64,000 nucleotides of DNA from Nonlabens ulvanivorans (GTDB lineage Bacteria; Bacteroidota; Bacteroidia; Flavobacteriales; Flavobacteriaceae), in contig NZ_JPJI01000023.1 of assembly GCF_000732625.1 (NCBI RefSeq), forward strand, positions 124,001 to 188,000, given 5' to 3'. This document shows positions 44,691 to 54,631 of this stretch, one piece after another (position 1 is the stretch's first letter; each line of letters begins with the position of its first letter). Both the position numbers and the translations under genes were made by a program. The notes beneath the pieces were generated by a model that ran no database searches, had not been told where the DNA came from, and was given only the letters and a program-made list of their open reading frames with translations.

Positions 44691-44771
44691 AATTTTTGTT
44701 GACATTCTATTTTGAGAATGTTGTTTAAGCTGCTTACAAACTGTTTTTTATTTCAAACTTTTTAAAACAAA

Positions 44772-44797
44772 AAAACCGCCTGAAACAGACGGTTTTT
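44772..44797 (-). terminator. his operon attenuator terminator
   Basis: On the minus strand CCGTCTG-TTT-CAGGCGG (one G-T pair), extended by AA/TT, is followed by seven T residues. It lies between the leader peptide and hisG. The leader segment CAGGCG near the leader stop codon can pair with the 5' arm CGTCTG instead. Confidence 0.88.
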
Positions 44798-44827
44798 AAA
44801 ATATGTTTGAGTTACATCAATACACTT

Positions 44828-44884
44828 TTAGCTCGCCTGACGGTAAGTAAAAAGATGATGATGATGTGCGTTTTGTGTTTTCAT
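44828..44884 (-). CDS. hisL: his operon leader peptide (attenuator peptide)
   Basis: An 18-residue ORF, MKTQNAHHHHLFTYRQAS, with four consecutive His codons, read from 44884. A -7 element TACTTTTG (44892-44899) ends 7 nt before the ATG. Ribosome stalling at the His codons would free the downstream CAGGCG to pair with the 5' arm of the terminator and allow transcription of hisG. The ORF is too short for standard gene finders, but its position and composition are diagnostic. Confidence 0.9.
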   Translation of the reverse strand: MKTQNAHHHHLFTYRQAS

Positions 44885-44891
44885 TATGTTA

Positions 44892-44899
44892 CAAAAGTA
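44892..44899 (-). promoter_or_regulatory. his operon -7 promoter element
   Basis: TACTTTTG on the minus strand matches TAnnTTTG, 7 nt before the leader ATG. Confidence 0.7.
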
Positions 44900-44925
44900 A
44901 GTCTGAAAATTGAATGATGAAAATT

Positions 44926-44948
44926 AATCCTACTTTATTAATAGGATT
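44926..44948 (-). terminator. Possible weak terminator after trpA
   Basis: A 7-bp stem AATCCTA/TAGGATT with a 9-nt loop lies 52-74 nt after the trpA stop codon. The following run is only AATTTT on the minus strand. Confidence 0.4.
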
Positions 44949-44999
44949 TAACTTTAATTTAAAAGTTTGTACTCCTTTGTTTAGTCTTTCTTTCCAGTA

Positions 45000-45764
45000 T
45001 TATTTAATACTTGCTACAAAGTTTGCGGTTGCTTTGGCAATGTCATCTACATCGGTTATTTGTCTTATGAATTCACTACCTATAATCGCGCCATCCACAT
45101 ACTTACAAGCATCTTTAAAGTTCTGTTGATTTTTAATATTGAAGCCAGTTAGAATAGGTGTTTTTAATTTCATGTCTTTAAGTTTACCTAAATAATCTGC
45201 TGCTGCAGAGAAATCTGCTTTAGATCCTGTAGTACTAGCCGAGCTAACTGCATAAATAAAACCGTTAGAGTTATCGTCGATTTCTCTGATACGTTTTTCT
45301 GAAGTTTGAGGAGTTACTAAGAATATGTTGCTGATGTTATATTTTTCAAAGACTTCTTTAAATTCTGTCTGATAAATATACATAGGTAAGTCTGGAACTA
45401 TTAATCCGTCAACTCCTACTTCTTGACATTTTTTACAAAATTTCTCTAATCCATATTGCATCACAGGATTCAAATATCCCATCAATAAAACTGGAACTTT
45501 AGGAGTATGATTTTCTAATTGAGAAAATAGTTTTTCAATAGACATACCATTCTCTAAAGCAATTTTGCTGCTTTCTTGAATAGTAGGACCATCTGCCAAT
45601 GGATCACTAAATGGAATCCCTATTTCTACTAAATCGACTTTTGCATTTTCTAAAGCTGTGAGTAGAGTAGTGGTGTCTTCTAGTTGTGGATATCCAGCGG
45701 TAAAGAATATGTTCAACAAGTTTTGAGGCTTGTGTTTAAGTAGTTCTGTGAGTTTATTTTTCAT
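45000..45764 (-). CDS. trpA: Tryptophan synthase alpha chain
   Basis: A 254-residue TIM barrel that cleaves indole-3-glycerol phosphate. FFTAGYPQLEDT, VEIGIPFSDPLADGPTIQESS with catalytic Glu, and LIVPDLPM with catalytic Asp are intact, as is the phosphate site TGFNIKN. It is the last gene of the trp operon, 59 nt after trpB. Confidence 0.96.
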   Translation of the reverse strand: MKNKLTELLKHKPQNLLNIFFTAGYPQLEDTTTLLTALENAKVDLVEIGIPFSDPLADGPTIQESSKIALENGMSIEKLFSQLENHTPKVPVLLMGYLNPVMQYGLEKFCKKCQEVGVDGLIVPDLPMYIYQTEFKEVFEKYNISNIFLVTPQTSEKRIREIDDNSNGFIYAVSSASTTGSKADFSAAADYLGKLKDMKLKTPILTGFNIKNQQNFKDACKYVDGAIIGSEFIRQITDVDDIAKATANFVASIK

Positions 45765-45823
45765 TGTTATAATCAGTTTTCAGCGCATGGCTTGCGCACT
45801 GCATAGTAAGTATGACTTTGTTT

Positions 45824-46993
45824 CTACAGTAGGTTCAACTCTTCCATATATGTATTCATGTCTTTATCACCGCGACCAGATAGATTGATTACAACACGAT
45901 CAGTAGGTTTTAAGTCTAAGTCTTTTAAGACAGAGAAAGCATGAGCGGTTTCTAGTGCAGGAATAATACCTTCAAGGCGACTACATTCTACAGCAGCTTC
46001 TAGTGCTTCAGCATCTGTAACAGCCATATATTGAGCGCGGTCAGACACTTTTAACCAAGCATGTGCTGGTCCGATTCCAGGATAGTCTAGTCCTGCTGAA
46101 ATACTATGAGGTTCTACAACCTGTCCATCTTTATCTTGCATCATTATAGAACGACTTGCGTGTAAAACACCTGGAGTTCCTAGAGTTAATGTGGCCGCAG
46201 TCTTATCGGTATCTACACCTAAACCAGCCGCTTCTACACCTATTAATTTTACTTCTTTATCATCTAAAAAGTGATAAAAAGCGCCCATTGCATTAGAACC
46301 GCCACCTACACATGCAATGACATAATCTGGTAAACCATCCATTTGTTTCTTAATCTCTTGAGAAATCACAGACTGATATCTTGCCACCATGTCAGGATAA
46401 GGATGTGGTCCAACTACTGAGCCTATGATGTAATGAGTGTCTTCTGGATTATTGATCCAGTCGCGCATTGCCTCATTAGTAGCGTCTTTTAAAGTTTTAG
46501 AACCGCTAGTTGCAGGTCTAACCGTTGCACCCAACATTTTCATGCGGGCAACATTAGGCGCTTGACGTTCTATATCTTTCTCGCCCATGTAAACGATGCA
46601 TTCCAGTCCTTTTAATGCACATACGGTTGCTGTTGCTACACCATGTTGTCCAGCACCAGTCTCTGCAATGATTCTTTTTTTACCTAGTTTTTCGGCAAGT
46701 AAAATCTGACCGATCGTGTTATTTACTTTATGAGCACCGGTATGACAAAGATCTTCTCTCTTTAACCAGATTTGAGCTCCATATTTTTCAGAAAGTCGCT
46801 TAGCTAAAAATAGTGGAGTAGGGCGACCTACATAATCTTTAAGCAATTGATGAAACTCTTCTTGAAATTCTGGTGATTTTTCTATTGCTAGATAATTCTC
46901 TTGTAGTTCTTCAATATTAGGATAGAGCAATTCTGGAATGAATGCACCACCGAATTCTCCATAAAATCCTTGTTCATTTACTTGATAGCTCAT
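45824..46993 (-). CDS. trpB: Tryptophan synthase beta chain
   Basis: A 389-residue PLP enzyme that joins indole and serine. The PLP lysine is in [13 protein letters not shown], the catalytic loop is [15 protein letters not shown], and the phosphate loop is GGGSNAMG. It overlaps trpF by 4 nt (46990-46993). Confidence 0.97.
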
Positions 46994-47628
46994 TTTCTTA
47001 ATTTTTCTATGAATGTTTTTATTTCTTTTATGTTTTTAACACCAGGCTCGGTTTCAAATTTTGAATTAAGATCTACACCTAAAAACATGTTGTGTTTAAA
47101 TTCTTTTACTATTGCTACATCATCTTTTGAAATTCCACCGCTTAATAAAAAAGGAACTTCTCCTTTATAAGAGTCGAGAATAGACCAATTAAATTTCTTA
47201 CCACTACCTCCATAATTGGGAGTAGCTGTGTCAAATAAAAAGAAAAGTTTGCCCACATATTGTGCTGCTAGCTCTTCCCATTCTTTTAAACTATTTAAAT
47301 CAAAGTCTTCGGTGATTTGAAATGCTTTAAATATCTTAATATCTATTTCTAGTAACGCTTTCGCGAAAGCAGAATCCTCATCACCATGTAATTGAATAAC
47401 GTCCAGTTGCAATGGAATGATATCCTTTAAAATGTTTTCAAGGGATTCATTTACATACACGCCTACGGTTCCTTTATTCATGGTTTGTTGGGCGACATTT
47501 TCTTTTTGAGAATCGTCTACAAATCGCTTAGACTTTGAGTAACGTATAATTCCCATGAAATCAATATCCAGTTCTTGTAACTGGTTAATGTTTTCTATAT
47601 CGCGCATACCGCACACTTTAATCATCAT
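46990..47628 (-). CDS. trpF: Phosphoribosylanthranilate isomerase
   Basis: A 212-residue TIM barrel with catalytic Cys7 (MIKVCGMRD) and Asp ([18 protein letters not shown]). The dispersed palindrome codes for SAFAKALLE at about residues 85-93, on the helix after the HGDED strand. It overlaps trpB and trpC by 4 nt each, indicating translational coupling. Confidence 0.96.
47356..47371. repeat. Dispersed palindrome, 15/16, inside trpF
   Basis: CGCTTTCGCGAAAGCA, read as AFAKA. Confidence 0.85.
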
Positions 47629-48428
47629 GACTTTATGGCTTTTATAAATTGCTCGCAGCTTGCTCCTGGTAGGTCGGTTTTCATGAAGTTTTCTCCTATT
47701 AAGAAACCTTCAAAGCCTAGTGTTTTAAGTTCTTTTACTATGTCAGGATCTGAGATACCGCTTTCTGATATGGCAAGAACATTTTCAGGAAAATGTGGTA
47801 AAAGATCTTTACTGTTTTGAATATCAGTTTTAAACCTTTTTAAATCACGATTATTAACTCCTATCACAAATTTAGACGTATTCAAAGAAGTGGTTACCTC
47901 TTTAATGCGATTCAATTCTTCTAAATCATGAACTTCAAAAAGAATTTCAAGACCTAGATTTATAGCCTCTAGGGACATGGTTTTTAATTCTTCGTTATTT
48001 AGACATGCTGCGATAAGTAGGATAGCGTCTGCTCCATAAGCTCGCGCTTCATGAATTTGATATAGATCTATCATGAAATCCTTGCGCAGGATAGGTATAT
48101 TAACTTGTGATCTTGCTTCTAGTAAATCGTCTAGCGTACCGCCAAAGAAAGGCAAATCAGTTAAACAGCTGATAGCGCTTGCACCGGCATTTTCATATCC
48201 TTTAACGACTTCCTGTAAGCTCGCTGGGCAATGGAAAGAGCCCTTGCTGGGGCTTTGTCTCTTATGTTCAGCAATGATACCGCTACCATTCTTTAAACTT
48301 GCATGTAGTGAAACTGGTTTACGAGAATAAGGCTTCATAGATCTCAAGTCTGATAGAGGAGTTTGAGCCTTTCTTGCTTTTAGATCTTGAGCAGTTTGAT
48401 TAGTTATTTTCTTTAGGATATCTTCCAT
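47625..48428 (-). CDS. trpC: Indole-3-glycerol phosphate synthase
   Basis: A 267-residue TIM barrel. IIAEHKRQSPSKG and LRKDFMIDLYQIHEARAYGADAILLI contain the catalytic Lys and Glu residues, and GVNNRDLKRFKTD with SESGI completes the active site. It overlaps trpF by 4 nt and lies 47 nt after trpD. Confidence 0.96.
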   Translation of the reverse strand: MEDILKKITNQTAQDLKARKAQTPLSDLRSMKPYSRKPVSLHASLKNGSGIIAEHKRQSPSKGSFHCPASLQEVVKGYENAGASAISCLTDLPFFGGTLDDLLEARSQVNIPILRKDFMIDLYQIHEARAYGADAILLIAACLNNEELKTMSLEAINLGLEILFEVHDLEELNRIKEVTTSLNTSKFVIGVNNRDLKRFKTDIQNSKDLLPHFPENVLAISESGISDPDIVKELKTLGFEGFLIGENFMKTDLPGASCEQFIKAIKS

Positions 48429-48475
48429 TATATCTGAAATTGTACTCTTGTTTGAATTATGAATTGATCATTGTA

Positions 48476-49471
48476 TTAAGCTTTAAGCTCCATAAGTTTT
48501 TGAAAACTTTCTAGGGCTTTACCAGTTTCTAAAGATGCTCTCGCAGCAACGACTGCATTTTTAAGATTTATATCTTGGGCTACTGATATAGCAGTTGCGG
48601 CATTAGCGATGACTACATTCTTTTGTGCATCGGTCGCTTTATTTTCAAGTACTTTCATAAAAATCAATGCAGCATCTTCTACAGTATCACCACCATAAAT
48701 ATCTGATTGTTTTAAAGGTTTCATATTAAAATCGCTAGCCGATAGATCGCTCACTCCATTATTTTTAGCCATGCGCACTTTTCCTGTAAGACTTACTTCA
48801 TCATATCCTTCATGTGCATGTAGTATCGCATATTTTTTATCTGTTTCTGATTGAAAAAGATATTCATAATTACGGGCTAGTTGTAAATTAAAAACACCTA
48901 CGCTTTGTAATTTAGGTTTTGCTGGATTTACTAATGGTCCCAACATGTTAAAGAAGGTTTTTACACCTAATTGTTTTCTAATAGGTGCAACAGCCTTCAT
49001 CGCCGGATGAAACAGCGGTGCGTGTAAGAAAGTAATGTTAGCCTCAGTTATTTGTTTTCTAAGAATATCATGATCATTTGTAAATACAAATCCTAGATGT
49101 TCCATTACATTAGAAGAACCACTTACTGAGCTCACTCCATAATTACCATGTTTTGCAACAGGTACACCTGCACCAGCAGTTACAAAACTAGCTAGGGTAC
49201 TGATGTTAAAAGTGTCTTTTCCATCACCACCAGTACCACATAAATCTATCGGATTAAATTCTGTTAGGTCAATAAGGTTTGCTTGTTCTAACATAGCATC
49301 TCTAAAACCTGCCAGTTCTTCTACAGTGATACTGCGCATGCCATAAACAGTTAGGAATGCTGCAATTTGCGCATCGTTTACAGTTCCGCTAGTTATGGCA
49401 GTTAGGATATCATAAGCACGCTTTCGCGAAAGCGTCCCATGATTAAATAATTCGTTTAGAATCTCTTTCAT
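48476..49471 (-). CDS. trpD: Anthranilate phosphoribosyltransferase
   Basis: A 331-residue enzyme that joins anthranilate and PRPP. DLCGTGGDGKDTFNISTLASFVTAG binds PRPP and KHGNYGVSSVSGSSNVMEHLG binds substrate. The dispersed palindrome codes for GTLSRKRAYDIL near residues 13-24. It starts 1 nt after the trpG stop codon. Confidence 0.96.
   Translation of the reverse strand: MKEILNELFNHGTLSRKRAYDILTAITSGTVNDAQIAAFLTVYGMRSITVEELAGFRDAMLEQANLIDLTEFNPIDLCGTGGDGKDTFNISTLASFVTAGAGVPVAKHGNYGVSSVSGSSNVMEHLGFVFTNDHDILRKQITEANITFLHAPLFHPAMKAVAPIRKQLGVKTFFNMLGPLVNPAKPKLQSVGVFNLQLARNYEYLFQSETDKKYAILHAHEGYDEVSLTGKVRMAKNNGVSDLSASDFNMKPLKQSDIYGGDTVEDAALIFMKVLENKATDAQKNVVIANAATAISVAQDINLKNAVVAARASLETGKALESFQKLMELKA
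49419..49434. repeat. Dispersed palindrome, perfect copy inside trpD
   Basis: CGCTTTCGCGAAAGCG, read as LSRKR in the N-terminal helices. Confidence 0.9.
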
Positions 49472-49472
49472 A

Positions 49473-50039
49473 CTACAAAGTGTCTATAAAATTTTTGAGC
49501 ATGGTTTTACCGTCTGGTGTCATGATGCTTTCTGGGTGAAATTGCAGGCCGTAAATAGGTAGTTCTTTATGTTTAAGAGCCATGATTTGACCGTTTTCGT
49601 CAGTTGCGGTTATTTCTAGAACATCTGGAAAACTGCTATTTTGTGCAGCCCAAGAATGGTATCGCCCTGCATCAAAATTAGTGTCGATATGATTAAATAT
49701 CTCATTACCGTTATGTGTCATGTTAGTAGAGATACCGTGATATACTTTATCTAGATTTATAATCTCTCCACCGAAGACTTCAGTAATGGCTTGATGACCT
49801 AGACAGATACCTAAAAGTGGTCTTTTATCTTTCAAAAAATCAATGATAGGTAACAAATTGCCAGCTTCACTAGGAATTCCTGGGCCAGGAGATAGAACGA
49901 CAGCATCGTAATTGACACACTCTTCAGGTGTGATTTTATCGTTGCGAACTACCTTTACTTTTACATTTAAATCCTCTAAATAATGAACCAGATTGAAGGT
50001 AAAGGAGTCGTAATTATCTATAAGAAGAATACTTTTCAT
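49473..50039 (-). CDS. trpG: Anthranilate synthase glutaminase component
   Basis: A 188-residue class I glutamine amidotransferase that supplies ammonia to TrpE. It has LIDNYDSFTFNLVHYL, the nucleophile in LLGICLGHQAI, and GLQFHPESIMTPDG. It is separated from trpE by the lipoprotein ORF, with a 1-nt overlap at 50039 (TAATG). Confidence 0.96.
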   Translation of the reverse strand: MKSILLIDNYDSFTFNLVHYLEDLNVKVKVVRNDKITPEECVNYDAVVLSPGPGIPSEAGNLLPIIDFLKDKRPLLGICLGHQAITEVFGGEIINLDKVYHGISTNMTHNGNEIFNHIDTNFDAGRYHSWAAQNSSFPDVLEITATDENGQIMALKHKELPIYGLQFHPESIMTPDGKTMLKNFIDTL

Positions 50040-50524
50040 TATTTAATAATTTGAAATTTACCTTTTGAATCTATGGTGTAATTTGTTTCTACATTATTAA
50101 CCATTTTCTGAATAGTGAAATCCTTAAAGATTTTACCTGAAAATATAGAGTCGTTATCTGTTCTTGCCAGTACTAGTTGATCAACTAAAACATTAGAATG
50201 ATTATAGCTTCGAATACTTAATTCTGTCCTCATACCTTCTTGAGCTTTATAATTTTTCATCATTGGCTTAATGAAATACAACTCTTTAAAGCCTATTGTA
50301 TTTCCCAATCTGTATTGTATTGCCGTAGCATTGTAAGCTTCAGCTTCAGTTAAATATTCATTCAGATTTTGATGTGGTGATTTAAAGTCTGTCGCGTTTG
50401 TCACATTCAATTTTAAATTCTCTTTTGAAGGAGACGCTTCATAAATAACTGTATTGGAGTTACACGAAGAGACAAAAATTGCTAAGACAAAAATTGAGAA
50501 ATATTTAATTATTTGAGTTTTCAT
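50039..50524 (-). CDS. Uncharacterised lipoprotein between trpE and trpG
   Basis: A 161-residue protein with signal FSIFVLAIFVSSCNS (lipobox VSSC, Cys21). The mature part is mixed alpha/beta without a recognised domain (LNEYLTEAEAYNATAIQYRLGNTIGFKELYFIKP, then MVNNVETNYTIDSKGKFQI). It overlaps trpE by 4 nt and trpG by 1 nt, so it is fully inside the coupled trp operon although it is exported and has no obvious link to anthranilate synthesis. Confidence 0.75.
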   Translation of the reverse strand: MKTQIIKYFSIFVLAIFVSSCNSNTVIYEASPSKENLKLNVTNATDFKSPHQNLNEYLTEAEAYNATAIQYRLGNTIGFKELYFIKPMMKNYKAQEGMRTELSIRSYNHSNVLVDQLVLARTDNDSIFSGKIFKDFTIQKMVNNVETNYTIDSKGKFQIIK

Positions 50525-51933
50525 TTTGTTGAATGGTTTTGAGTTGCTTGATTTATGGCCTTTCTTAAGGCATTAGTTTTATTATATACTTCTTGTGTCT
50601 CGTCATCTATGTTACTATGTACAACAACGCCTGCACCGGCTCTAAAGTTAAGAGTTTTGCCTTGTGATAATATACTACGTATGATAATGGCGTGATTAAA
50701 ATCACCATTAAATCCTAAATATCCTATAGCACCACCATAGAAACTACGACTAGAGTTTTCATATGTATCAATAAGTTGCATGGCTTTATATTTAGGTGCT
50801 CCACTTAAAGTTCCAGCAGGAAAAGTGTCCCCTATAAGCTGTATTTTATCCTCTTCATTAATTAATCCAGTCACTTTACTAACCATATGAATCACGTGAG
50901 AGTAAAAATGTATATTTTGATAGTCAGTCACCGCGACATTTCTAGCATGTCTACTCAAATCGTTACGAGCTAGGTCTACTAGCATCACATGTTCAGCAGT
51001 TTCTTTAGGATCCTTCTTTAAGTCTTCGGCAGCTTTTAAGTCTGCACTGTCATTTCCAGTTCTTTTATAGGTTCCAGCAATAGGCTGTATACTGGCGTGA
51101 TTTTCTTTGATAATTAATTGCGCCTCTGGTGAAGAACCGAATATTCTAAAATTACCATAGTCAAAATAAAATAAGTAAGGACTAGGATTGATTGCTCTTA
51201 ATTCACGATAAACATTAAAATCATCACCTTGAAAATCTTGAGAGAATTTGCGAGATAAAACTATTTGAAAAACATCACCACGACGGCAATGTTCTTTCCC
51301 TTTTTCAACTAGCTTTTTAAAATCATCATCACTCATCTCTGATGTTTCATTATCAGTTGTATTAAAACTATATTGAGCGACATCTTTATGTTTAATGACG
51401 CTTAGTAATTCATTTATTTTAGGTTTTTTTCCATCATATAAGTGTTCAAAAACATGAAGTTGATTATGGTAGTGATCAAAAACCATTACATTTTGAAAAA
51501 CTTGATAATGAGCAAGAGGTATGTTCTTCTCGCTTTCGCGAAAGCGAAATTCTAAAGACTCAAATAATTGAACAGCATCATAGCCTAAATATCCAAAAAG
51601 CCCATGATTAGGAAATGGGAAATCAGAATCTGTATGTGAGAAGGAGTTTTTAAATTGCGTAAGTCCAGCAGCAAGATCATAACTTGAATTGAAAGAAGAT
51701 TGCTCGCTTGAACCATCTGGATACTGACTTTCAATGCTTGTGTTTGTAACTGAAAACTGTGCTACAGGATTACAACAAATAAATGAATAACTATTACTGC
51801 GTTCACCATACTCATTACTTTCTAGTAATATACTGCCTGGATATTTATCACGTAATCGCATATATATAGCTACAGGTGTAAGCATATCTGCTAATATGGA
51901 TTCTTGTGTAGTTTTTGCTTTATGTTTTTGCAT
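50521..51933 (-). CDS. trpE: Anthranilate synthase component I
   Basis: A 470-residue chorismate enzyme. The tryptophan feedback motif LLES is at SILLESNEYGERSNSYSF, and the catalytic domain has FQIVLSRKFSQ, PSPYLFYF, IAGTYKRTG and GTLSGAPKYKAM. The dispersed palindrome codes for LEFRFRESEKN at about residues 130-140. It is the first structural gene after the trp leader and attenuator. Confidence 0.96.
   Translation of the reverse strand: MQKHKAKTTQESILADMLTPVAIYMRLRDKYPGSILLESNEYGERSNSYSFICCNPVAQFSVTNTSIESQYPDGSSEQSSFNSSYDLAAGLTQFKNSFSHTDSDFPFPNHGLFGYLGYDAVQLFESLEFRFRESEKNIPLAHYQVFQNVMVFDHYHNQLHVFEHLYDGKKPKINELLSVIKHKDVAQYSFNTTDNETSEMSDDDFKKLVEKGKEHCRRGDVFQIVLSRKFSQDFQGDDFNVYRELRAINPSPYLFYFDYGNFRIFGSSPEAQLIIKENHASIQPIAGTYKRTGNDSADLKAAEDLKKDPKETAEHVMLVDLARNDLSRHARNVAVTDYQNIHFYSHVIHMVSKVTGLINEEDKIQLIGDTFPAGTLSGAPKYKAMQLIDTYENSSRSFYGGAIGYLGFNGDFNHAIIIRSILSQGKTLNFRAGAGVVVHSNIDDETQEVYNKTNALRKAINQATQNHSTK
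51531..51546. repeat. Dispersed palindrome, perfect copy inside trpE
   Basis: CGCTTTCGCGAAAGCG, read as RFRES. Confidence 0.9.
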
Positions 51934-51959
51934 TATAAGTTCTAAAAATGGGTAAAATA

Positions 51960-51989
51960 AAAAAGGTCTGCCGTTAAGCAGACCTTTTT
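51960..51989 (-). terminator. trp operon attenuator terminator
   Basis: A stem AAAAAGGTCTGC with GCAGACCTTTTT and a 6-nt loop lies between the leader peptide and trpE. The leader segment GCCGTAAAG, which includes the leader stop codon, is complementary with one mismatch to CTTAACGGC in the hairpin and can serve as the antiterminator. Confidence 0.9.
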
Positions 51990-52012
51990 GTTATATAAAC
52001 ATACGGGTGACT

Positions 52013-52066
52013 TTACGGCTGTTGAGCTGTATCATTCCACCACCAAGTATGATTTGTGTTTCTCAT
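52013..52066 (-). CDS. trpL: trp operon leader peptide (attenuator peptide)
   Basis: A 17-residue ORF, MRNTNHTWWWNDTAQQP, with three consecutive Trp codons, read from 52066. The -7 candidate TACATTTA (52075-52082) ends 8 nt before the ATG; another, TAGGTTTG, lies at 52095-52102. The leader precedes an attenuator hairpin and trpE, the standard arrangement for tryptophan attenuation. Confidence 0.9.
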   Translation of the reverse strand: MRNTNHTWWWNDTAQQP

Positions 52067-52074
52067 AGAGATTG

Positions 52075-52082
52075 TAAATGTA
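52075..52082 (-). promoter_or_regulatory. Probable trp operon -7 element
   Basis: TACATTTA on the minus strand, 8 nt before the leader ATG. The alternative TAGGTTTG at 52095-52102 fits the consensus better but gives a longer leader. Confidence 0.5.
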
Positions 52083-52120
52083 AGTAGGCATTTTCAAACC
52101 TACAAGTATCTAACATTTTT

Positions 52121-53785
52121 TTAATAACCTTCATCATGTATACCACTAACTGCTCGACCTGATGGGTCATTCATGTTTTTAAAAGCTTCATCCCATTCTA
52201 ATGCAACAGGTGTCGAGCAGGCTACAGATTTTAAAGAAGGTACACAGTTTGCGGCAGTATCGCTAGGGAAGTGTTCACTAAAAATACTACGATAGTAATA
52301 CTCTTCTTTATTTTGTGGCGGATTGATTTTAAATTTAAAAGGAGCTGCCTCCATCATTTCATCAGTCACCACATCTTCTACGACTTCTTTTAAGGTATCG
52401 ATCCAGCTGTATCCAACGCCATCGCTGAATTGTTCCTTTTGTCTCCAAGCAACACTTTTAGGTAGTTCATCTTCAAACGCTTCTCTTAAAATGTGTTTTT
52501 CCATTTTTCCATTTCCACACATTTTATCTTTAGGGTTGAGTCTCATAGCTACATCCATAAATTCTTTATCTAAAAACGGAACGCGACCTTCAATTCCCCA
52601 TGCTGCAAGGGATTTATTTGCTCTTAGGTTATCATATAGATGTAGTGTATCTAGTTTACGCACGGTTTCTTTATGAAATTCTTCTGCACTAGGTGCTTTG
52701 TGAAAATATAAGTAACCTCCGAAAATCTCATCACTACCTTCACCAGATAGAACCATTTTAATTCCCATAGATTTAATAACTCGTGCAAGAAGATACATAG
52801 GTGTGGATGCTCTAATGGTAGTAACATCATAGGTTTCTAGAAAATAAACTACGTCTTTTATTGCGTCTAGACCTTCTTGAATTGTGAAGTTGACACTGTG
52901 ATGCACGGTACCTATATGGTCTGCAACTTCTTGTGCTGCTGCTAAATCAGGACTTCCTTCTAAACCTATGGCAAATGAATGTAATTGAGGCCACCAAGCC
53001 TCTTTGTTATCACCTGATTCTATACGCTTTGCGGCATATTTTTTTGCAACAGCACTTACAATAGAACTATCTAATCCACCAGAAAGTAACACACCATATG
53101 GTACATCGCTCATTAAATGTCTATGAACAGAGTCTTCCATTGCTTTCTTAAGCTCAGCGACAGAGCTTTTATTTTCTTTTACTGAATCATAACTTTTCCA
53201 CTCGCGATCATACCATTTTGTAAAGCTGCCATCTTCACTATAATAGTAGTGTCCTGGCGGAAATGGGCTGATTTGATTACAGGTGCCTTCTAAAGCTTTA
53301 AGTTCACTAGCGACATAAAATTGCCCTAATTCATCTGTACCATGATAGAGAGGAATGATTCCTTGATGGTCTCTTGCGCATAGGAAAACGTCTTTTTCAC
53401 TATCATAAAGAGCAAAACCATACATACCGGTAAGCTCATCCATAAAGTCTATACCTTTATCTTGATAAAGAGCTAATATGACCTCGCAGTCACTTTTAGT
53501 TTTGAATTCATAAGAATCTTTATAATGGTCACGTATTTTTTGATGGTTGTATATTTCTCCATTTACGGCAAGTACGACTTTACCATCTGGACTATATAAC
53601 GGTTGACCACCTGATTGTGGATCTACAATGGTTAATCGTTCATGAGCAAGTATTGCATTACTACCACAATAAATACCCGACCAGTCTGGTCCTCGATGTC
53701 TTAATTTTTTTGATAATTCTAAGATTTTTTCTCGTTGGTCTTGGCTGTCTTTTTTCAGCTGAAACATCCCTACTATTCCACACAT
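52121..53785 (-). CDS. asnB: Asparagine synthetase B, glutamine-hydrolysing
   Basis: A 554-residue AsnB. The N-terminal glutaminase domain uses Cys2 (MCGIVGMFQL), with RHRGPDWSGIY and VNGEIYNHQ. The C-terminal synthetase has the ATP loop LLSGGLDSSIVSAVA and LSGEGSDEIFGGYLYFHKAP. It makes asparagine from aspartate, ATP and glutamine. It lies upstream of the trp leader on the same strand, with its own Asn-rich leader peptide and attenuator hairpin. No terminator was recognised between its stop codon and the trp promoter. Confidence 0.97.
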   Translation of the reverse strand: MCGIVGMFQLKKDSQDQREKILELSKKLRHRGPDWSGIYCGSNAILAHERLTIVDPQSGGQPLYSPDGKVVLAVNGEIYNHQKIRDHYKDSYEFKTKSDCEVILALYQDKGIDFMDELTGMYGFALYDSEKDVFLCARDHQGIIPLYHGTDELGQFYVASELKALEGTCNQISPFPPGHYYYSEDGSFTKWYDREWKSYDSVKENKSSVAELKKAMEDSVHRHLMSDVPYGVLLSGGLDSSIVSAVAKKYAAKRIESGDNKEAWWPQLHSFAIGLEGSPDLAAAQEVADHIGTVHHSVNFTIQEGLDAIKDVVYFLETYDVTTIRASTPMYLLARVIKSMGIKMVLSGEGSDEIFGGYLYFHKAPSAEEFHKETVRKLDTLHLYDNLRANKSLAAWGIEGRVPFLDKEFMDVAMRLNPKDKMCGNGKMEKHILREAFEDELPKSVAWRQKEQFSDGVGYSWIDTLKEVVEDVVTDEMMEAAPFKFKINPPQNKEEYYYRSIFSEHFPSDTAANCVPSLKSVACSTPVALEWDEAFKNMNDPSGRAVSGIHDEGY

Positions 53786-53804
53786 AACTAAATTGTTTAA
53801 ATGA

Positions 53805-53833
53805 AAAAAGGTCTACTGTGAAGTAGACCTTTT
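53805..53833 (-). terminator. asnB attenuator terminator
   Basis: GGTCTACT-TCAC-AGTAGACC flanked by A and T runs, 20 nt before asnB. The segment GTAAGGTAG at the leader stop codon can pair with CTACTTCAC of this hairpin (seven Watson-Crick pairs, one G-U, one mismatch). Confidence 0.85.
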
Positions 53834-53860
53834 GAATTTTTTAAAATACCAGATACTACC

Positions 53861-53911
53861 TTACGTGAGTAAAGAATTATTATTAAATCTGATATTATTA
53901 TTTTTTATCAT
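53861..53911 (-). CDS. Asn-rich leader peptide of asnB (attenuator peptide)
   Basis: A 16-residue ORF, MIKNNNIRFNNNSLLT, with six Asn codons in two triplets, read from 53911. The -7 element TACATTTA ends 7 nt before the ATG. It precedes a terminator hairpin and asnB in exactly the layout of the his and trp leaders in this window. It would let low charging of tRNA-Asn raise asparagine synthetase. The composition could be chance in an AT-rich region, but the position, hairpin and antiterminator pairing argue against that. Confidence 0.8.
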   Translation of the reverse strand: MIKNNNIRFNNNSLLT

Positions 53912-53918
53912 AACACTG

Positions 53919-53926
53919 TAAATGTA
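53919..53926 (-). promoter_or_regulatory. Probable asnB -7 promoter element
   Basis: TACATTTA on the minus strand, 7 nt before the Asn leader ATG. Confidence 0.5.
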
Positions 53927-53992
53927 AAAAAAATCTTTTAGCAAACAAATTTCTGTTACAATTAATACTTACGTAGGATTTGTAATAAGGTC

Positions 53993-54631
53993 TTAATGTC
54001 TAACTGAAGATTTAATAACCTCTGGCATTTTAGAAGCAAATTTTCTCCACCTTGGAATTGATACACCTTGTATATAGCCTTGATTAGGATGCAGTTTTGC
54101 ATAGTCCTGATGGTATTCTTCAGCAATCCAGAATTTTTGAAAAGCTTTTACTTCAGCAGCTACTTTATAGCCTTCGTTAGTTAGGGCAGTAATTTTGTCT
54201 TCTATAATTTTCTTTTGCTCATTATTCTGATAGAAAACAATACTTCGGTAGGATTCACCTATATCTGGACCTTGACCATTTACTTGCTCTATATTTTGTG
54301 AGGCAAAATAAACATCTACTAAAGTTTTAAAACTTACAGTTTCTGGATCGTAAATTATTTCATTTGCTTCAGCATGATCTGCATGGTTTCTATAAGTAGG
54401 ATTTTCAGTGTTGCCACCGCTATATCCAGAGATAGCTTCTTGGACACCTTGAACGCTTTCATATATTTCTTCTACACACCAAAAACAACCACTAGCAAAG
54501 TATGCTCTTTCTAATCCGTCTTGAGCATTTACTTCTACGGGTAAAATTTCTTTTTGTTTTGCCTTTTTTTCAACTGGTGTATTACAGGTTGAGGCAATAA
54601 ATATTAATATTATGGTACTTATCAGTTTCAT
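53993..54631 (-). CDS. msrA: Peptide methionine sulfoxide reductase A, exported
   Basis: A 212-residue MsrA with the catalytic motif FASGCFWCVEEIYESVQGV, GYSGGNTENPTY and WIAEEYHQDY near the C-terminus. The N-terminus (IILIFIASTCN) is a lipoprotein-type signal, so it should repair oxidised methionines of envelope proteins. It is a single gene; the region to its left carries the asnB promoter. Confidence 0.94.
   Translation of the reverse strand: MKLISTIILIFIASTCNTPVEKKAKQKEILPVEVNAQDGLERAYFASGCFWCVEEIYESVQGVQEAISGYSGGNTENPTYRNHADHAEANEIIYDPETVSFKTLVDVYFASQNIEQVNGQGPDIGESYRSIVFYQNNEQKKIIEDKITALTNEGYKVAAEVKAFQKFWIAEEYHQDYAKLHPNQGYIQGVSIPRWRKFASKMPEVIKSSVRH

Follow-up and report, generated by a model that had tools for sequence, protein, structure and literature searches.

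Leader-peptide attenuation is a textbook mechanism that serves a short list of amino acids, such as tryptophan and histidine, and its paradigm is the leader-peptide attenuators of the trp and his operons of Escherichia coli. T-box RNAs respond to uncharged tRNA, which is bound directly by the RNA and involves no leader peptide. Judging by its title, Lopatovskaya et al. 2010 is reportedly a survey of amino-acid operon attenuation in bacteria. According to the available parts of the respective articles, trp attenuators have been predicted in Actinobacteria (PMC1262725), leader-peptide attenuation has been proposed before amino-acid biosynthesis operons of Flavobacterium psychrophilum (PMC9723704), Firmicutes T-boxes serve asnS and an Asn transporter (PMC2494555), and group A Streptococcus transcribes asnA less in the presence of asparagine (PMC12117059). 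The initial annotation of the locus described here remarked that attenuation had rarely if ever been described for asparagine synthetase, and the literature agrees as far as it was covered: no Asn-codon leader before an asparagine synthetase was found among the open PMC matches listed (supplements and Lopatovskaya et al. 2010 lie outside this coverage), and no Asn leader is described in the available parts of PMC9723704, PMC7366714, PMC2965389, PMC1262725, PMC4833913, PMC10272879 and PMC2494555. The element ahead of asnB in Nonlabens ulvanivorans is very probably a ribosome-mediated transcription attenuator, through which charged tRNA-Asn would control asnB.

The window, meaning the whole stretch of 64,000 nucleotides of N. 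ulvanivorans DNA that was analysed, carries asnB on the minus strand at 52121–53785. Its 554 amino acid product is asparagine synthase B, as identified by NF006949 (927 bits, cut-off 499) and also by TIGR01536, and msrA (53993–54631) lies upstream of the leader on the same strand. The open reading frame, its Asn codons, the terminator, both alternative pairings, their conservation and the association with asnB were computed directly, and all features of the element given below are on the minus strand. The leader ORF, MIKNNNIRFNNNSLLT, occupies 53861–53911 including its stop (16 codons, ATG at 53911), and the six Asn codons in two runs that had been claimed for it were confirmed from the sequence, at leader codons 4–6 (53894–53902) and 10–12 (53876–53884). 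A candidate −33 element, TTTGTTTG (53942–53949), which we take to be the Bacteroidota −33 motif, is not invariant across the loci of the genus. The candidate −7 box, TACATTTA (53919–53926), is like TAnnTTTG, and none of the 21 aligned genus loci departs from its TA..TTT; in the available part of PMC9723704, TAnnTTTG is stated to be the −7 consensus for sigma A, the primary sigma factor of flavobacteria. From the position of this box we infer a very short 5' UTR, with transcription starting just ahead of the leader ATG.

The terminator hairpin that the initial annotation placed directly ahead of asnB is present as a predicted intrinsic terminator at 53806–53833, with a T6 run at 53804–53809 and 98.8% of cells paired in 21 loci, and the asnB start codon (53785) lies 18 nt past its end. 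The predicted fold of the strand carrying the element is far more stable than those obtained after shuffling (z −4.0, with none of 200 shuffles folding as well). Two pairings that alternate with one another were found between the leader and the terminator. In the protector hairpin, region 1 (AATATCAGAT, 53887–53896) is the 5' strand and lies between the Asn runs, the 3' strand of the outer stem is ATCTGGTATT (53845–53854), and the inner hairpin is formed by the arms CTTTAC (53869–53874) and GTAAGG (53859–53864), the latter overlapping the leader stop codon. In the antiterminator, region 2 (GTAAGGTAG, 53856–53864) is the 5' strand and region 3 (CTACTTCAC, 53818–53826), inside the 5' arm of the terminator, is the 3' strand. 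The segment around the leader stop can therefore pair with the terminator 5' arm as had been proposed, with one A.C mismatch and 91.5% of cells paired in the Nonlabens alignment, compared with at most 61.1% when the strands are slid.

The Asn codons and the hairpin, whose conservation in relatives the initial annotation had named as a check, are well retained. Including the genome under study, 22 of the 23 genomes of the genus have asnB, and the Asn leader and terminator are kept at 21 of these 22 loci; a second type of Asn leader, described below as type 2, was found in 24 further genera. The only asnB locus of the genus without the leader is L020 (genome G014). Its upstream DNA differs and carries the palindrome CGCTTTCGCGAAAGCG, which is also found upstream in L008, L009 and L025. 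The type-1 (Nonlabens) leaders have 6–8 Asn codons each, amounting to 135 of 339 codons (n=21); 10 of the 21 use AAT as well as AAC, and in 19 the last NN pair is followed by exactly four residues before the stop. Sequence upstream of the leader varies between loci of the genus (L007 and L013, for example, as judged by eye) while the leader is retained.

The type-1 protector has 84.2% of cells paired, as opposed to 45.9% at most when slid by 1–3 columns. Shuffle and swap controls ignore relatedness and their figures are for this reason not strict probabilities; read in this way, changes on both sides of the protector were seen in 6 of 16 pairs (reached by 11 of 500 shuffles) and in 11 cells (reached by 1 of 500). 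In L016 CAGA:TCTG is swapped for AACGAGA:TCTCGTT, with both strands changed together (by eye). Compensatory changes support the type-1 protector and the terminator. The type-1 antiterminator has an energy of −9.9 kcal/mol against −5.3 ± 0.47 with shuffled strands. It shows little covariation, its score being matched by 45 of 500 shuffles, and its strands pair no better with their own partners than with swapped ones (p 0.55, under the same controls), so that coevolution of the two strands beyond a shared motif is not supported. The predicted duplex reaches −13 kcal/mol or lower in only 4 of 21 type-1 loci, and that of the window is modest at −6.5 kcal/mol compared with −14.4 for the terminator.

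From this arrangement we infer how the element would operate, from the promoter position through translation, stalling and ribosome footprint to termination and the response to asparagine. Transcription would begin just ahead of the leader ATG and a ribosome would translate MIKNNNIRFNNNSLLT. With ample Asn-tRNA, the ribosome would reach the stop and mask the antiterminator strand, the terminator would form and transcription would end before asnB. With scarce Asn-tRNA, it would stall at an Asn codon of either run and cover region 1, which would block the protector and let GUAAGGUAG pair with CUACUUCAC of the terminator 5' arm, and once this antiterminator had formed the polymerase would continue into asnB. 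If the leader were not translated, the protector would form and termination would be favoured. The initial annotation had spoken of translational attenuation for asnB; its assignment to the class of leader-peptide attenuation is supported, and anatomically the element corresponds to ribosome-mediated attenuation at the level of transcription.

The footprint of the ribosome was calculated for the window element by assuming that about 15 nt are covered on either side. With the A site at codon 4, 5, 6, 10, 11 or 12, region 1 (nt 16–25) would be covered (all except its last base for a stall at codon 4) and the antiterminator strand (nt 48–56) would be free, apart from its first base, which is hidden by a stall at codon 12. 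A ribosome at the leader stop would cover approximately nt 31–63 and so hide the antiterminator strand. When the unmasked RNA was folded minus the 3' arm of the terminator, the antiterminator was obtained for stalls at codons 4, 6, 10 and 12, and no structure was obtained for a ribosome at the leader stop. Once the 3' arm was present the terminator was the stabler fold in every case tested for the window, and therefore read-through would need kinetic ordering, or timing.

The Asn attenuator that had been proposed for asnB in the window is supported, and its predicted scope is broader than was stated, as two architectures were found. In the family, asnB was found in 282 of 397 genomes and the upstream region was taken from 80, mostly one per genus; an Asn-run leader before a terminator was detected in 9 of the 80, including G118 (the genome of L107) and its genus-mate G326, which were chosen knowingly. 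Among 80 named asnB loci, an Asn leader with a terminator was seen in L031 (Nonlabens), L040, L101 and L107. No Asn leader was found at eight asnB loci from other genera of the family, nor at a further 25 loci of the family. A search of three positive genera gave 14 loci, and the leader was present in all 13 that have a readable upstream region (L283 is cut), ten of them from genomes outside the earlier sample of 80.

Nearly all type-2 leaders end in an Asn run, usually of three codons, followed by three codons (GNP, GMP, RMP and so on), the stop and the antiterminator strand. This strand, like CAAAAACTTG, is followed after about 20 nt by a terminator like CCCGTCAGGTTTTTG..GACGGGTTTTTT. The leaders have 3–9 Asn codons each, in total 301 of 687 codons (n=44), with both AAT and AAC used in 40 of the 44 and 38 ending exactly three residues beyond the last NN pair; the asnB products begin MCGIVCAF in 30 of 30 loci. 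An alignment of 21 sequences shows 95.4% of cells paired for the terminator, with both-side changes in 5 pairs and 12 cells (each reached by 0 of 500 shuffles), and 95.8% for the antiterminator, CAAAAACTTG:CAGGTTTTTG, with both-side changes in 3 pairs (25 of 500 shuffles) and 7 cells (0 of 500). Region 1 of type 2, often ACAAG plus two bases, lies just before the leader start codon and pairs with the antiterminator strand at a mean of −6.5 kcal/mol, compared with −3.6 ± 0.40 for shuffled strands and with −2.0 when a more distant upstream stretch serves as control. Examples of this pairing are ACAAGG/CCTTGT, ACAAGCT/AGCTTGT and AGCAC/GTGCT, with ACAAGNN opposite NNCUUGU being frequent, and certain rows pair only weakly here (−4.1 for L040 and −4.2 for L240). 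Own partners paired better than swapped ones both for regions 1 and 2 (p 0.0006) and for regions 2 and 3 (p 0.007), in permutations that ignore relatedness and use 18 of the 21 rows, three near-copies having been dropped.

Model R1 was built from the 21 type-2 sequences and run on 339 genomes of the family, at least three of them Nonlabens. Matches were found in 43 genomes at E ≤0.01 and in 34 at E ≤1.1e-7. Thirty strong loci all lie before asnB with an Asn ORF, and G149, G304, G231 and G171 (= L244) were likewise checked. Training sequences came from 12 of these 34, and each of the 22 strong matches that the model had not been trained on is at asnB. The accepted leader of G231 is poor (MFLNKNSNYQP, with three separated Asn). 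Weak matches (E 1.6e-4 to 0.0098) numbered ten, and only that of G086 (MIVIKVNNNFKT) is at asnB. The other nine, in eight genomes, are terminators away from asnB and were rejected as Asn elements. Type 2 is accordingly accepted in 35 of the 339 genomes, representing 24 genera, 16 of which contributed no numbered genome to the training set (two of the training MAGs are unplaced as to genus); the 304 genomes with no accepted type-2 match include those of Nonlabens and those lacking asnB. When a chosen set of 13 genomes was searched with a short core pattern, it was found at 15 places in 12 genomes, 12 of these places being at asnB, and the reversed pattern at 7 places in 5 genomes.

A pattern of a T-run before asnB was also searched for. 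Required to precede MCGIVG starts, it matched 66 of 397 family genomes, and of 15 loci obtained from it 14 begin MCGIVGY, which we take to be a glmS-like motif, with the remaining one, L150, being an asnB without a leader. A corrected pattern matched 17 of 365 genomes of the class, with the leader in the genome under study only. These searches are not negative evidence, because they are blind to MCGIVCAF starts. A Bacteroidales MAG locus, L032 (2260–2500), has a candidate leader MFTTTNSAFNYNPQAD before asnB, with a terminator and possible antiterminator; it is a weak candidate outside Flavobacteriaceae and was not counted.

Several other explanations of the element were weighed against these results. 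The hairpin might be the 3' terminator of msrA and the Asn-rich ORF a product of chance, given the AT-richness of the intergenic region and the position of msrA, upstream and in the same orientation. When the 207 nt between the genes were shuffled with dinucleotides preserved, an ORF with at least six Asn arose in 28 of 5000 cases, but one with two NNN runs in 0 of 5000, and the presence of the leader at 21 of 22 loci, where AAT and AAC replace one another synonymously, its persistence while the flanking upstream DNA changes within the genus, and the second architecture in 24 genera all make such a coincidence extremely improbable. Conservation of the ORF, and the likeness of the last three residues of the type-2 peptides (GNP, GMP, RMP, AKT and others), would also suit a functional small protein beside a terminator independent of its translation. 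This is highly improbable, as the non-Asn part of the first half varies strongly from genus to genus, and what is kept is the distance of the Asn run from the stop and from the antiterminator strand.

Direct binding of a tRNA or a metabolite by the RNA, as in a T-box or riboswitch with the ORF being incidental, has a precedent in the T-box control of asnS reported for a few Firmicutes in the available part of PMC2494555. The window element and five type-2 loci nevertheless gave no Rfam family at gathering score, and no T-box covariance-model match was found in them, for the window element even at a relaxed threshold, so that this identity was rejected; the conserved columns belong mainly to the Asn codons, the surroundings of the stop and the stems that alternate, and direct sensing consequently has a very slim chance of being correct. 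A leader that acted mainly via translation coupling, Rho or mRNA stability, and not through an intrinsic terminator, would be compatible with the sequence alone, and region 1 of type 2 does lie just before the leader start codon. It appears very unlikely, since all 21 aligned type-1 and all 21 aligned type-2 sequences have a terminator with a T-run after the leader, and the antiterminator strand has the 5' arm of this terminator as its partner. Among the amino-acid leader families of Rfam, Phe_leader scored 24.2 bits at the element against a gathering threshold of 55 and was rejected. The only Rfam match of the window at gathering score is a Flavo-1 RNA at 110–208 on the minus strand (56 bits).

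Read as a ribosome-mediated attenuator, the element can be placed on the phylogeny of its gene. A FastTree phylogeny of 167 AsnB proteins (39 type 2, 20 type 1 and 108 with none; L018 and L283 left out) was labelled for leader type by motif rules. Of the type-2 AsnB, 38 of 39 fall in one clade (support 97), and 20 of 20 type-1 AsnB form a clade with the leaderless L020 (100) that is outside the clade (99) to which those 38 belong. On this tree the leader state needs to change only four times, compared with a mean of 54 after shuffling, with leader-positive loci being over-represented because R1 supplied many of them, and with deep branches weak (50). The two types of Asn attenuator likely arose separately, in distinct AsnB lineages; alternatively, there may have been a single gain of the leader and several losses. 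The Nonlabens AsnB (MCGIVGMF) stands apart from other flavobacterial AsnB, beside Bacteroidales-type sequences, with weak support. It is possible that asnB of Nonlabens was acquired horizontally.

Models of the two types were also searched against each other. Model R2, for type 1, gave 17 matches at E ≤1 in 24 other loci, most of them at type-2 leaders; the best were L032 (0.0011) and L278 (0.0022), and an unrelated place in L107 scored 0.0031. R1, run on the window and seven loci, had its best match in L019 (0.015) and several weak matches at Nonlabens leaders. These cross-matches would neither show nor exclude common descent of the two architectures. Within the genus, all 14 genomes have their best R2 match at the leader of asnB, which shows only that there is no stronger copy elsewhere, as all 14 trained the model. 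In 12 of the 14 a second match (E ≤1.2e-3) lies just downstream of asnB at the place of the trp leader, among many weak matches (3–22 per genome at E ≤1, all counted), and the trp leader of the window is matched at E 2.1e-7.

The trp and his leaders that had been noted nearby are both present and share the plan of the Asn leader, the trp leader ORF MRNTNHTWWWNDTAQQP at 52013–52066 (minus strand) with a terminator at 51960–51989 that resembles the Asn terminator, and the His leader MKTQNAHHHHLFTYRQAS with a terminator at 44771–44797. Three attenuator-controlled units, those of asnB, trp and his, stand in a row on the minus strand at 44771–53926. Inside the trp cluster, a 161-aa lipoprotein-like ORF (MKTQIIKYFSIFVLAIFVSSC...) at 50039–50524 on the minus strand separates the trpE-like gene from the gene that comes next. 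Of the 19 genus loci handled (L016, L019 and L021 are outside this set), 17 have a trp leader with WWW after asnB; L018 and L025 gave none because asnB is cut or misread there. Across the genus the Trp (51960–51989) and Asn (53806–53833) terminators are alike in sequence, a hint of duplication or conversion between adjacent attenuators, and as the likeness is mainly in the terminator, common descent from a trp attenuator can only be suggested. The neighbouring trp and Asn attenuators, with their similar terminators, offer a testable case of attenuators gaining a new amino-acid specificity.

Because the protector strand of type 2 is just before the leader start codon, the switch might sense ribosome loading in addition to Asn-tRNA charging. 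We would give about even odds to a wider proposal, that Asn leader attenuators are an unrecognised class with at least two origins in Flavobacteriaceae, one in Nonlabens (perhaps as a recoded duplicate of the adjacent trp attenuator, at an asnB of another lineage) and one at the base of a large flavobacterial asnB clade, with the type-2 switch reading both ribosome loading and Asn-tRNA charging. Asn attenuation is predicted in 25 flavobacterial genera (Nonlabens and the 24 others) as well as in two unplaced MAGs, and the two architectures look separately built. As a rule for annotation, such elements may be sought as an Asn run, three or four codons, a stop, an antiterminator strand, a terminator and asnB. 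A known mechanism would thereby be extended to a new amino acid, asparagine, and a new gene, asnB, with priority not proven.

When compared with described systems, the Asn element has in common with the Firmicutes T-boxes that it would serve asparagine-related genes (in the available part of PMC2494555), and it differs in having a predicted leader peptide and no T-box match. It shares proposed leader-peptide attenuation ahead of amino-acid biosynthesis genes, in the same family, with the leaders of Flavobacterium psychrophilum in the available part of PMC9723704, the main text of which does not contain asnB or asparagine. The neighbouring trp attenuator of Nonlabens has the same plan, a similar promoter box (by eye) and a similar terminator (AAAGGTCTRCTT..AGACC), but its leader has Trp codons and a different sensor part, many protector pairs being non-standard in the trp leader when it is aligned to R2. 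With the classical trp and his attenuators the Asn elements share a short leader ORF rich in codons of the amino acid that the controlled gene produces, a predicted intrinsic terminator between the leader and the first gene, and the predicted control of the amino acid's own biosynthesis. They also share the set of protector, antiterminator and terminator: the antiterminator uses the terminator 5' arm and is mutually exclusive with the terminator (conserved in type 1, covarying in type 2), the protector would sequester the antiterminator strand, and, by arithmetic for the window element, a stalled ribosome would mask the protector and one at the stop codon the antiterminator strand. They differ from these attenuators in the amino acid, which is asparagine, in the gene, which is asnB, and in the 5' strand of the protector, which lies between the two Asn runs in type 1 and in the 5' UTR before the start codon, where it pairs with region 2, in type 2.
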